Assembly: GCF_005281615.1 (NCBI RefSeq)
Contig: NZ_SZZM01000004.1
Location: forward strand, 186,001 to 250,000
Origin: Rhodoligotrophos defluvii
GTDB taxonomy: Bacteria > Pseudomonadota > Alphaproteobacteria > Rhizobiales > Im1
Reading direction: 5' to 3'
Length of the DNA stretch: 64,000 nt
How positions within the stretch are numbered: position 1 is the first letter of the stretch; each line of letters starts with the position of its first letter. A program made the position numbers and the translations under genes. The notes beneath the pieces were generated by a model, which had not been told where the DNA came from, did no database searches, and saw only the letters and a list, made by a program, of their open reading frames with translations. Of the stretch, positions 11,707 to 23,458 are shown in pieces.

Positions 11707-12513
11707 ATGCCGCTGTCAGCGGTGGACCTCAACTGCGATATGGGCGAAGCGTTCGGGCGGTGGCACATCGCCGATGCCGACGACGCGCGTATCATGGGGC
11801 TGATCAGCTCGGCCAATATTGCCGCTGGTTTCCATGCGGGCGACCCCATGCTGATGGACGAGACCGTCCGGCTGGCGGCGCAATATGGCGTGGGCATCGG
11901 CGCCCATCCGGGCTACCGGGATCTTCAGGGGTTCGGCCGCCGCAAGATCGCCGGCAGCAACGAGGAGATCCTCAACGACCTGATCTACCAGGTCGGCGCG
12001 CTGCGCGAATTCGCGCGCCGTTACGGGGCGAAACTCCAGCACGTCAAGCCGCATGGCGCGCTTTACATGGAGATGGCCGTCAATGAAGGCTTGTCGCGCG
12101 GCTTCATCGACTTCATGCGCCGCACCTCGCCGGACGTCTACGTCTTCTGCATGGAGGCCTCGCTGACGTTCCGCATCGCCCGCGAAATGGGGCAGCCGGC
12201 CGTACGGGAGTTCTATGCGGACCGCGATTACGATGCGACCGGCTCCATTGTCTTCGTGCGGCGGGTCGACCGGCTGGACCCCAAGCGGGTCGCGGACAAG
12301 GTGGTGCGCGCCTGCCTGGAGGGGAAGGTGCGCACCGTTGAAGGCGAGGACATCGACGTTTCCTTCGAATCCGTCTGCTTCCACTCGGACACGCCTGGCT
12401 GCGTGGAGATCGCCTGTGCCATACGCGATGCCCTCACCGCGAGCGGGGTCCGCATCGCGCCGGTTTCCGAGATACTCGTCAGTGCGGACAGTGGTTCAAG
12501 GAGAGCCGTATGA
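11707..12513 (+). CDS. pxpA: LamB/YcsF family protein, PxpA-like
   Basis: This 268-residue member of the LamB/YcsF family corresponds to subunit A of prokaryotic 5-oxoprolinase, which opens the 5-oxoproline lactam together with PxpB and PxpC. Family hallmarks are [11 protein letters not shown] at the N-terminus, [38 protein letters not shown] and VCFHSDTPG near the end. Length is slightly above the usual 245-255. It is the first gene of a coupled operon and overlaps the biotin carrier gene by ATGA. Because carboxylase subunits follow, the substrate may not be 5-oxoproline. Confidence 0.9.
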
Positions 12514-12752
12514 GCAAGCAAGAAGTTCGGTCGCCCCTTCCCGGCGTCTTCTATCGCAAACCTGCACCCGACAGCCCGCCTTATAAGAATGACGGCGATG
12601 CGGTGGCGGCCGACGACGTCATCGGCCTGGTCGAGGTGATGAAGTCCTTCCACGAGGTGAAGGCTGGGGTGGCGGGCCGAGCGATCCGTTTCCTGGCGGA
12701 CAACGAGGATGCGATCATGGCCGGCGACGTGATCGCGGAGGTCGAGGGATGA
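12510..12752 (+). CDS. Biotin carboxyl carrier protein (biotinyl domain)
   Basis: The 80-residue biotin/lipoyl-attachment domain stands alone, without the long N-terminus of AccB. The modified lysine would be in EVMKSFHEV (about residue 45), a variant of the classical AMKM with Val before and Ser after Met-Lys. The symmetric hairpin partner [14 protein letters not shown] and the closing GDVIAEVEG are typical. It overlaps both pxpA and the biotin carboxylase gene by ATGA, so one carrier per carboxylase subunit is likely. It would shuttle carboxybiotin from the carboxylase to PxpB/PxpC (inference from urea carboxylase). Confidence 0.87.
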
Positions 12753-21088: not shown

Positions 21089-21091
21089 GTC

Positions 21092-23458
21092 ATGACTTTG
21101 GCGGATGCTTCGAACGTCACCATGAACCTGCCGCGGCGCGACGCCCGCGACAAGCTTCTCGGCCGCACCCGCTATACGGTCGACCGAAAGCACCCGGGCA
21201 TGTTGCACGCGGCATTGCGGCGTTCAGATATCGCCTCCGCCCGGATAATCAAGGTCGATATCACGGATGCCAGCAGGATGCCCGGTGTGCGTGCCATCGC
21301 GCTCGCCGCCGACGCACCGGGCATGCACGGCATCGGCATCGCGGACCATCCGCTTTTCGCGCGTGACGCAATCCGCTTCCATGGCGAGCCGATCGCCGCC
21401 GTCGCGGCCGACACGCAGGCCCAGGCGCAGGCAGCCGCGGCTGCCATCGTCGTGGAGACCGAGCCTCTGCCTGCGGTGCTCAGCATGGCGGATGCGCTGG
21501 CCCCCGATGCGCCCCTGGTCCATCCCGAATGGAGAAGCTACCAGGTTCTGGTCGAGGGCGGCGTCCGCGGCGGCAATGTCGCCTGGGAGGCCACCGTGAT
21601 CCGCGGCGACACGGAAGCGGCCTTCGCCCGCGATGATGTGGTCGTCGTCGAGAGCTGCTTCCGGGTCGGCCGGCAGAACCACGTCTCGCTCGAGCCGCGT
21701 GCCGTCGTGGCCTCCTATGAGGACGGGCGCTACCACATCGAGACCTCGACCCAGGTGCCCTGGACCGTGCGCGCCATGACGGCCAAGCTCCTGGGCGTGC
21801 CGGCCGCTCAGGTCCGTGTCACCGTGCCGCCGGTCGGCGGCGGCTTCGGCCAGAAATTCGACTGCACGCTCGAGCCCTATGCGGCGATCCTTGCGCGCAA
21901 GACCGGCCGTCCGGTGCGCCTCGTCTATTCCCGGCAGGAGGAAATGCTCACCTGCCTGTGCCGTGAGAATGCCGAGATCAAGATCCGCTCGGCGGTCACC
22001 AAGAACGGCGAGATCGTCGGCCGCGAAGCTGTCGTGCTGATGGATTGCGGCGCCTATGGCGGCGAGCAGATCTTCCTCACCACCATGACGGCGCATACGC
22101 TCGGCGGCAACTACCGCCTGGGTTCGGTGAAGCTCGCCAGCCGCGCCGTCTACACCAACACGCCCCCGAACGGTGCCTTCCGCGCCTGCAACGGCGTCTA
22201 CAACACCTTCGCGCTGGAGCGGCACACGGACGAGATCTGCCAGAAGATCGGCATGGACCCGCTGGAGTTCCGGCGGCGCAACGTGCTGGGCGACGGCGAC
22301 ATCGGCGCCACGGGACAGGTTTTCGAAGGTGACGTGCTCGGCCCCATGCTCGACCGGATGAAGCGCTGGCGCGAGACCGCGCCCTCGCGCAAGTCACTGG
22401 CGGCTAGGCGCCTCTATGGCCGCGCGACGGTCGTCGGCACCTGGTTCATATTCGTCGGCCCGTCCACCGCCACCATCAATCTCAATGCCGACGGGAGCGC
22501 TACGGTCATCACGGCCGGAGTGGAGATCGGTTCGGGCACCATGGTGCAGGCCCTGCCGCAGATCGTGGCCTACGAGCTCGGCCTCCATCCCGATCAGGTC
22601 GTCGTGCGGAGCGCCGATACCGACGCGGCCGGCTTCGATCTCGGTGTCGGCGGCGGGCGGACCACCGTCTCCATTGGTGCGGCCAGCCGCGCGGCGGCAG
22701 AGGATGTGCGCCGGAAGCTGCTGGCCGTGGCGAGCGAGATGCTACAGACGCCGCCGGATAGGCTGAAACTCGCCAGCGGCCGTGTAGAGATCGCCGGCAA
22801 GGAAGGATCGGGTACCTCCATCGCAGCGGTTGTGCAGCGTGCGCACGAGGTGATCGGACCGGTCGTCGGCAGCGGCGCCTTCACCAAGCCCGGGGTCACG
22901 GCCATGCCGGGCTGCGCTGCAGGCCATTTCATCGACGCGCTCGACTTGCCCGTCTTCGCCGTTCACGACTGCGAGGTCGCAGTCGATCCCGATACGGGCC
23001 ACGTCGAGATCCTCAGCTATAAAGTGGTGCAGGACGTCGGCCGCGCTCTCAACCCCCGGGCCATCCACAGCCAGATCCAGGGCGGCGTCACGCAAGGACT
23101 GGGCTATGCGCTGCATGAGGAGCTGACCATCGGCCAGGACGGCTGCATCCGCCAGAACAGCCTTGAGACCTACCGCGTGCCGCTCGCGCTCGACACGGTG
23201 CCGGTCGAGATCGATCTCTACGAGGGCGCACCTTCGATCGGACCGCTCGGGGCAAAGGGCGCCGGCGAGGTCCCCATCCTCAACGTTCCGGCCGCAGTGG
23301 GCTGTGCCGTCGCCAACGCGATAGGACGTCGGGTTCAGCAGACGCCGCTCACGCCACCACGCGTGCTGGGGCTGCTCCTTGGCCGAGAGCCCGATGTCGA
23401 TCTGCCTCACATTGGCGACGACTGGTGGGATAATGTGTTGATGAAGCGTCCATCGTGA
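21092..23458 (+). CDS. Molybdenum hydroxylase large subunit (CoxL/XdhA-Mo-like)
   Basis: This 788-residue molybdopterin-binding catalytic chain belongs to the xanthine dehydrogenase/aldehyde oxidase family. It has the PVGGGFGQK loop (about residue 245), PPNGAFRACNG in the substrate-site region, and the catalytic glutamate in GAKGAGEVP near the C-terminus. The AYRCSFR loop of copper-molybdenum CO dehydrogenase is absent, so CO oxidation is not expected. Hydroxylation next to nitrogen in a heterocycle, or of an aldehyde, fits better. It ends the 11-gene unit, and the PxpABC/carboxylase genes upstream could open the resulting lactam (inference). Confidence 0.92.
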   Translation: MTLADASNVTMNLPRRDARDKLLGRTRYTVDRKHPGMLHAALRRSDIASARIIKVDITDASRMPGVRAIALAADAPGMHGIGIADHPLFARDAIRFHGEPIAAVAADTQAQAQAAAAAIVVETEPLPAVLSMADALAPDAPLVHPEWRSYQVLVEGGVRGGNVAWEATVIRGDTEAAFARDDVVVVESCFRVGRQNHVSLEPRAVVASYEDGRYHIETSTQVPWTVRAMTAKLLGVPAAQVRVTVPPVGGGFGQKFDCTLEPYAAILARKTGRPVRLVYSRQEEMLTCLCRENAEIKIRSAVTKNGEIVGREAVVLMDCGAYGGEQIFLTTMTAHTLGGNYRLGSVKLASRAVYTNTPPNGAFRACNGVYNTFALERHTDEICQKIGMDPLEFRRRNVLGDGDIGATGQVFEGDVLGPMLDRMKRWRETAPSRKSLAARRLYGRATVVGTWFIFVGPSTATINLNADGSATVITAGVEIGSGTMVQALPQIVAYELGLHPDQVVVRSADTDAAGFDLGVGGGRTTVSIGAASRAAAEDVRRKLLAVASEMLQTPPDRLKLASGRVEIAGKEGSGTSIAAVVQRAHEVIGPVVGSGAFTKPGVTAMPGCAAGHFIDALDLPVFAVHDCEVAVDPDTGHVEILSYKVVQDVGRALNPRAIHSQIQGGVTQGLGYALHEELTIGQDGCIRQNSLETYRVPLALDTVPVEIDLYEGAPSIGPLGAKGAGEVPILNVPAAVGCAVANAIGRRVQQTPLTPPRVLGLLLGREPDVDLPHIGDDWWDNVLMKRPS

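Follow-up and report, generated by a model that had tools for sequence, protein, structure and literature searches.

What is the function of an operon in which the parts of a biotin-dependent carboxylase adjoin a LamB/YcsF hydrolase related to the 5-oxoprolinase subunit PxpA, an ATP-binding cassette (ABC) importer and a molybdenum hydroxylase? The question is raised by eleven genes at positions 11707–23458 of a 64,000-nt stretch of contig C4 in the genome of the soil bacterium Rhodoligotrophos defluvii (5.49 Mb, labelled G000); this whole stretch is here called the window, and positions are given within it. Sequence comparison identifies the first five genes as encoding a biotin enzyme that belongs neither with the 5-oxoprolinase PxpABC nor with urea carboxylase. 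With moderate confidence, the operon can be read as a system for the uptake and opening of a lactam or a lactam precursor, in which a biotin-dependent lactam carboxylase and a LamB/YcsF ring-opener would be fed by a lactam-making molybdenum hydroxylase. The genes are as follows.

11707–12513, plus strand: LamB/YcsF (PxpA-like) hydrolase, the proposed ring-opening subunit (PF03746, 290 bits, 2e-86)
12510–12752, plus strand: biotin carboxyl carrier of 80 residues (PF00364; NF005457, 123.5 against a cut-off of 87)
12749–14134, plus strand: dedicated biotin carboxylase (BC) (NF009471, 755.6 bits against a cut-off of 686)
14131–15006, plus strand: KipI-type carboxyltransferase half, subdomains C-D (PF02682)
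14996–15967, plus strand: KipA-type carboxyltransferase half, subdomains A-B (PF02626, 6e-90; PDB 5dud, 5i8i, 3va7)
16023–17093, plus strand: TorT-like periplasmic substrate-binding protein, CUT2 (NF008185, 432.8 against a cut-off of 200)
17145–18662, plus strand: double ABC ATPase of the importer (PF00005, two stretches)
18662–19702, plus strand: ABC permease of the importer (PF02653, 5e-35; ATG start at 18662)
19739–20623, plus strand: FAD subunit of the molybdenum hydroxylase (PF00941, PF03450)
20630–21088, plus strand: 2Fe-2S subunit of the molybdenum hydroxylase (PF01799, PF00111)
21092–23458, plus strand: molybdenum (Mo) subunit of the molybdenum hydroxylase (PF01315, PF02738, PF20256)

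All eleven genes are intact, lie on the same strand and fit their stated families in profile searches. An earlier note on this DNA had described eleven codirectional genes, the first five overlapping by 4–11 bases, and this layout is confirmed: the overlaps within the first five genes are 4, 4, 4 and 11 bases, and the spacings after the fifth gene are 55, 51, −1, 36, 6 and 3 bases.

The Five-Gene Core as a Predicted Biotin Enzyme

The operon was compared with loci (L-numbers) from samples of genomes (G-numbers). A KipI search found close copies (68–100% identity) in 20 of 385 genomes of the class, the own genome counted. The set of relatives comprises 118 loci besides the window, namely 19 from class genomes, 5 from annotated plasmids, 80 from named genomes and 14 from a phylum sample; because the named-genome loci are the best 80 of 584 matches, counts over the 118 loci lean to near relatives. 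Some records are repeated (L155 is L076, L156 is L086 and L157 is L120; the KipI proteins of L071 and L126 are identical) and some loci are short contigs, the stretches averaging about 19 kb in the relative and control sets alike. The controls are 36 PxpB-type loci, 28 of which have LamB and 33 KipA nearby.

Near KipI in the 118 relative loci are found LamB (115), KipA (117), BC (115), the biotin carboxyl carrier protein (BCCP; 113) and TorT (49). The recurrence of the five-gene core in nearly all these loci argues that its assembly is not due to chance: LamB, carrier, BC, KipI and KipA form a conserved unit that is kept together across families. The larger gene set recurs as well: the identical eleven-gene order is present in L076, L104, L112 and L145 and the same order, with BioY between the permease and the FAD subunit, in L075, L077–L081, L107 and L109. 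Among the matches listed (best 80 of 584), the closest named relatives of KipI come from Mesorhizobium, Pseudaminobacter, Labrys and Bradyrhizobium.

The residues required for biotin chemistry are in place. The carrier aligns to E. coli BCCP (1bdo), and its acceptor lysine, K45 (codon 12642–12644, in EVMKS), is kept in all 114 aligned carriers, the window counted. From these alignments, rows with coverage below 70% (60% for the carrier) or with a stop were dropped, leaving 112 BC, 114 carrier and 107 LamB rows of the 119 loci including the window. In BC, the catalytic residues (E. coli numbering) K117, H209, K237, E275, E289, N291, R293, E297 and R339 occur in 112 of 112 rows and K159 in 111. 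The next best BC-like chain in the own genome is 53% identical to the operon BC; with other BC-like chains at 53% or below, the operon BC is not the housekeeping copy.

The strongest marker lies in KipI. In Kluyveromyces lactis urea amidolyase, Lys1605 probably serves the carboxyltransferase as general base, and the K1605A substitution is severely inhibitory (PMC5770610). This residue aligns to K173 of the operon KipI (codon 14647–14649; the residue was counted by hand, with an offset of 593 between the two K. lactis chains). Lysine occupies the position in every one of the 118 relative loci, as it does in all 9 loci of a group further removed, six of which have BC nearby, and in all 9 loci, from 6 genomes, that encode fused urea-carboxylase-like chains. 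The PxpB-type loci have arginine instead in 33 of the 34 readable cases (37 were examined, 3 of them without a readable match), the single lysine coming from an unsure alignment. In a KipI tree of 66 chosen rows, 25 of them biotin-type and 25 PxpB, the biotin-type, distant and fused chains are together separated from PxpB (SH-aLRT 99, by a quick method with long branches flagged). An AlphaFold model of KipI (mean pLDDT 83) ranks K. lactis urea carboxylase, 5i8i/3va7, first (E 3e-22, TMq 0.79); PxpB-type structures reach a TMq of at most 0.58 but, normalised by their own length, 0.74–0.78 for most, so that the ranking, to the detriment of the reading favoured here, is partly a length effect, PxpB-type structures having only about 200 residues.

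In the family f83 (genomes G084, G199, G292 and G370; loci L061, L062 and L064–L067), each genome has 4 to 6 more distant Lys-type KipI matches, some of them in tandem.

Gene context adds a link to biotin supply. BioY or biotin synthesis genes are located near 21 of the 118 relatives and none of the 36 PxpB-type controls (Fisher p 0.002, relatedness ignored), with BioY in 19 loci and bio biosynthesis genes in 2 (L086 and L156 being one record); on a 116-row KipI tree, the distribution of BioY requires at least 11 gains or losses. The plasmid locus L074 carries, in this order, the core, the importer, succinate-semialdehyde dehydrogenase (SSADH; 727 against a cut-off of 646), carbonic anhydrase (PF00484), bioB, bioF, bioD and bioA, and in a second plasmid locus bioB follows KipA.

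Measured against the known families, the operon combines LamB/YcsF, KipI and KipA as PxpABC does, but falls short of the PxpABC equivalog models (PxpB, 75.2 against 145.55; PxpC, 221.6 against 500). The score of KipI with the urea carboxylase model is 117.6 bits, higher than with PxpB and also under the cut-off. The single-chain form of urea carboxylase is replaced by four separate chains, each under the TIGR02712 cut-off of 1303.85, and no allophanate hydrolase (amidase) was detected in the operon or in the six genes scanned on its flanks. By these comparisons the core is classed apart from both enzymes. Plain PxpABC was set aside, since the Arg marker is found there and BC is not; plain urea carboxylase was set aside, since the operon is split, has no allophanate hydrolase and includes LamB.

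Neighboring Genes of Lactam and Omega-Amino-Acid Metabolism

A CapAB-like HyuA/HyuB pair (at least 71% identity to the pair of L073) adjoins 15 of the 118 relatives and none of the 36 controls, and all chains tested from the CapAB-like loci, 7 alpha and 10 beta, score above the caprolactamase cut-offs NF050156/NF050157. In genome-wide counts of CapA and the Mo subunit, for which scoring covered the two or three best candidates of each genome, CapA (E ≤ 1e-200) is present in 5 of the 385 class genomes, all five being among the 20 KipI genomes, with CapA less than 14 kb from KipI (hypergeometric 2e-7). The own genome has no CapA match at E ≤ 1e-200 (query, L082 CapA), and a CapA-like chain in L065, of the more distant group, is below the cut-off (520 against 1000).

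Enzymes that act on omega-amino acids are found at several relative loci. In L089, the permease is followed by gamma-aminobutyrate (GABA) transaminase (827 against 724) and SSADH (720 against 646); GABA transaminase follows the operon in L094 (837 against 724), and BioY and SSADH follow it in L044; omega-aminotransferases above NF004767 are present in L050, L057 and L160. None of GabT, SSADH, CapAB or the L160-type aminotransferase was detected near the 36 controls at the thresholds used. In the own genome, five matches above NF004767 (one with an internal stop) and one SSADH above TIGR01780 were found, all unlinked to the operon. At G000:C2:725784-728562, an aldehyde dehydrogenase lies beside an omega-aminotransferase match with one internal stop, a possible downstream pair, also unlinked.

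Loci L070–L073 (L072 at 16–28 kb) and about 30 further Rhizobium-type loci have a polyamine-type importer, two short-chain dehydrogenases/reductases (SDRs) and a CobW-type GTPase by the core, in two orientations. The same loci contain a polysaccharide deacetylase weakly similar to PuuE and, where read, an amidase.

Such neighbors could also be reconciled with a carboxylase whose target is a nitrogen of the urea, guanidine, hydantoin or imide type, the product being hydrolysed by LamB and the lactam-like neighbors serving as alternatives for related compounds. We consider this unlikely. The fold and key residue that KipI/KipA shares with urea carboxylase are in its favor, as are the ATP-dependent hydantoinase-type genes (31–36% identical to CapAB) in L158, L168 and L212, the deacetylase weakly like PuuE allantoinase by many Rhizobium-type loci and the amidase in L071–L073. 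Against these stand the lack of allophanate hydrolase in the unit and in the flanking genes examined, and the chains that match the CapAB models, together with GabT and SSADH, which are enzymes of lactams or omega-amino acids.

The Importer and the Molybdenum Hydroxylase

The TorT-like protein is 84% identical to BBta_2440 of Bradyrhizobium BTAi1, solved as 4yhs, reportedly with bis-Tris as ligand. TorT of E. coli is a sensor partner; a role in relation to trimethylamine N-oxide was set aside because the TorT-like gene is located with an ABC ATPase and a permease.

The three subunits that follow display the features of molybdenum hydroxylases of the xanthine dehydrogenase type, namely domains that bind the molybdenum cofactor, two 2Fe-2S domains, an FAD domain and a catalytic-type glutamate. 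This residue, E726 in GAKGAGEVP, and the subfamily loop GAFRACN are both found in 12 of 12 aligned Mo subunits, and the nearest structures in the PDB are 1rm6, 7dqx and 1t3q. The subfamily is narrowly distributed: with the own genome counted, Mo subunits of the window type (at least 69% identity) occur in 4 of the 385 class genomes and in 4 of 398 phylum genomes, all with operon-type KipI (hypergeometric for the 385, 5e-6; 1e-4 without the own genome).

The arrangements differ among loci. The Mo hydroxylase is downstream of the importer in Mesorhizobium-type loci; in L050, it lies beside a GMC-type oxidoreductase, an SDR, the core, CapAB and an aminotransferase; in G343 (L208, L041), beside CapAB and ABC-importer genes (type not tested); and L212 has a run of a hydantoinase-type pair (Hyu), Cox subunits, a second LamB and an omega-aminotransferase.

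The importer and the hydroxylase might nonetheless form a separate pathway that is merely downstream of the five-gene carboxylase, which again appears rather improbable, although the assignment of the hydroxylase to the pathway of the core is less certain than the identity of the core itself. A separate pathway would fit the finding that about 100 of the 118 relative stretches have the core but no Mo hydroxylase and 69 have it but no TorT (some contigs being short), and the at least 19 gains or losses of TorT required on the KipI tree. In G200, moreover, the Mo subunit is 1.1 Mb from KipI, and a different type of Mo subunit, CoxL of L053, occurs near 4 biotin-type loci as well as 3 of the 36 controls, so that Mo hydroxylases as such are not specific to the core. 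The counterweight is that the window-type Mo subunit was found only in genomes with operon-type KipI, four of four in each sample, and that in 5 of the 6 genomes besides the own one the two genes are no more than about 13 kb apart, in varied arrangements.

A CO-dehydrogenase-like Mo subunit (L053 type, 43%) is encoded near the Arg-type PxpB loci L176, L179 and L181.

LamB/YcsF and 5-Oxoproline

The LamB of the operon, with structural relatives 1v6t, 2dfa, 2xu2 and 1xw8, keeps the PxpA motifs and scores 286.9 with the PxpA subfamily model NF003814, above the cut-off of 226. It has, in addition, two residues of its own. Position 120 is tyrosine in 104 and phenylalanine in 3 of the 107 rows, against N, G, S or A in 28 of 30 PxpA rows; Ser227 is present in 107 of 107 rows, against G in 26 of 30 PxpA rows (the printed PxpA residue counts include the window as a 31st row). 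The two residues, which would be expected in an enzyme with another substrate, appear to mark a biotin-type LamB subfamily.

A biotin-assisted 5-oxoprolinase, which would retain the LamB fold and 5-oxo-L-proline as substrate and replace phosphorylation by carboxylation, is accordingly to be weighed; we regard it as more improbable than either alternative discussed above. The match to the PxpA model and the 39% identity to a second LamB of the genome are compatible with it, and 5-oxoproline is the demonstrated substrate of PxpABC (PMC13274462). The genome, however, already has this second LamB/KipI/KipA locus, of the Arg type and without BC at the locus (L003, G000:C1:1350500-1369500); the operon LamB departs from the PxpA rows at Y120 and S227; and some relatives have neighbors indicative of omega-amino acids and caprolactamase. 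The neighbors of L003 itself, named by eye from translations, are a DUF1989-like urea-carboxylase-associated gene, an amino-acid ABC importer and an agmatinase-like gene.

Public records name the genes of the operon acetyl-CoA carboxylase, allophanate hydrolase, PxpA and TorT; ordinary acetyl-CoA carboxylase subunits with misplaced 5-oxoprolinase genes, as the NCBIfam and plasmid-record names suggest, can hardly be credited, given that no CoA-type carboxyltransferase is found among the eleven genes, that the genome has another BC (53% identical) and that the five genes stay together across families.

Flanking Genes and Signals

Upstream, the operon faces a divergent regulator, and one LysR cluster is present in 89 of 105 clustered loci, the window counted:

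10509–11414, minus strand: LysR-type regulator, divergent from the operon (PF00126 and PF03466; ATG at 11414)

Downstream, at 23502–27595, genes for a TetR regulator, an SDR, an AMP-dependent ligase and a nitronate-monooxygenase-like protein apparently form a separate unit. Terminator-like sites inside the stretch number 7, against 7.5 expected from shuffles (both strands), and promoter counts were likewise at the level of shuffled sequence.

A Proposed Route of Lactam Opening

The earlier note had suggested a merger of urea-carboxylase-type machinery with a hydrolase of the PxpA type, directed at a lactam, a suggestion now strengthened by the Lys/Arg marker, the KipI tree, the carrier lysine, and the biotin-supply and caprolactamase/omega-amino-acid neighbors. 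From the identities of the subunits, their catalytic-type residues, their conserved association and the biotin and lactam gene context, we infer the following substrate class, order of steps and activities. The TorT-like ABC importer would take up a nitrogen heterocycle, and the three-subunit Mo hydroxylase would place a water-derived oxygen on the carbon next to the nitrogen, yielding a lactam. Molybdenum hydroxylases can convert a cyclic iminium to a lactam, as aldehyde oxidase does in making cotinine, and for this reason a cyclic imine, such as 1-pyrroline or 1-piperideine, would be the best fit; the N-heterocycle named in the earlier note is thus retained as substrate but narrowed to a cyclic imine or amine, and the link of the hydroxylase to the core gains from their co-occurrence in genomes in several arrangements.

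In the next steps, BC would use ATP to charge the 80-residue carrier with CO2 from bicarbonate; KipI/KipA, with Lys173 as general base, would then pass the CO2 to the nitrogen of the lactam, in the way that urea carboxylase carboxylates urea. N-carboxylation would weaken the resonance of the ring amide, giving an activated N-carboxy-lactam, the ring amide of which the LamB/YcsF subunit would hydrolyse. The resulting carbamate would shed CO2 to leave an omega-amino acid of the GABA or 5-aminovalerate class, to be passed on to omega-aminotransferase and semialdehyde dehydrogenase.

Several observations weigh against this route. The loci L164 and L166 (two genomes) contain LamB-KipI-KipA without adjacent BC or BCCP, the best BC elsewhere in these genomes being 52% identical, and L048 has no BC at the locus; it is possible that the L164 and L166 systems share BC and BCCP with acetyl-CoA carboxylase. 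By its title, PDB 9yx5 is an Arg-type KipI/KipA pair of Mycobacterium smegmatis (MSMEG_0435-0436) bound to long-chain acyl-CoA carboxylase; as the KipI of 9yx5 has arginine, the Lys/Arg marker may fail to separate users of biotin from non-users. PxpABC, too, may use biotin machinery, in which case the marker would tell systems with dedicated biotin machinery from those that borrow it. As for the neighbors, GabT or SSADH is found near only 5 of the 118 loci and the L160-type omega-aminotransferase near only 3, the queries came from the relatives themselves, so that the comparison with the controls favors the relatives, and no GabT in the own genome passes the TIGR00700 cut-off. Finally, CapAB alone opens caprolactam, and its presence is no proof that the biotin enzyme uses a lactam.

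In its most specific form, the proposal is of a biotin-dependent lactamase for unstrained 5- or 6-membered lactams, in which N-carboxylation precedes hydrolysis by LamB/YcsF and bicarbonate serves as a recycled activator. Such an enzyme, which we advance tentatively and rate at slightly less than an even chance, would supply the natural opener that 2-pyrrolidinone has so far lacked and, coupled to the Mo hydroxylase, would provide an oxidative route from imine to omega-amino acid. Within the reach of our searches it would have no precedent: no description of biotin-dependent lactam opening, or of a BC-linked LamB/YcsF protein, was found among the titles and abstract openings listed from open-licence PubMed Central (in some searches 20 of 3,096, 20 of 22 or 15 of 56 matches), and PMC12866759 contained none of the terms looked for. 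Medium-ring lactams are chemically stable and are monomers of nylon-4, -5 and -6 (PMC11033972, PMC8453981). If the proposal is true, a biotin enzyme for lactam opening would point to the way in which many rhizobia and related bacteria deal with these compounds and would extend the range of biotin carboxylases by a further acceptor class. It would also bear on the working of PxpABC itself and put right the annotation of hundreds of gene sets, the matching stretches numbering 584. Ordinary soil bacteria would permit a direct test.

Comparison with Known Systems

Urea carboxylase, in which BC, KipA, KipI and BCCP form one chain (K. lactis, 3va7 and 5i8i), has the same carboxyltransferase fold, general-base lysine, BC and carrier as the operon, whereas the operon distributes these over four chains, has LamB/YcsF in place of allophanate hydrolase and is only 23% identical over KipI. 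Paired genes resembling the two halves of the urea-carboxylase transferase are noted as unstudied by Lombard and Moreira (PMC3199775). With PxpABC, the operon has in common the trio LamB/YcsF, KipI and KipA; PxpB-type loci, unlike the operon, carry Arg at the position of Lys173 (33 of 34 readable) and lack BC and BCCP in their vicinity (0 of 36), and PxpABC is assumed to phosphorylate 5-oxoproline (PMC13274462).

CapAB and OplAB resemble the proposed function of the operon in opening lactams with ATP and bicarbonate but belong to unrelated, biotin-free families (PMC8453981, PMC11033972). The reasons for which both enzymes need ATP and bicarbonate are still debated (PMC11033972, PMC8453981), and OplAB shows no more than trace activity towards gamma-butyrolactam (PMC11033972).

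The M. smegmatis pair MSMEG_0435-0436 is, going by the title of 9yx5, similar to the operon in that KipI/KipA is docked on biotin carboxylase machinery; it differs in its Arg-type KipI and in BC and BCCP that would be borrowed rather than dedicated. Among solved structures, the Mo subunits nearest to that of the operon are those of quinoline 2-oxidoreductase, 6-hydroxypseudooxynicotine dehydrogenase and 4-hydroxybenzoyl-CoA reductase, from which the operon subfamily is set apart by its GAFRACN loop and by its occurrence, in both samples, only alongside the biotin core.

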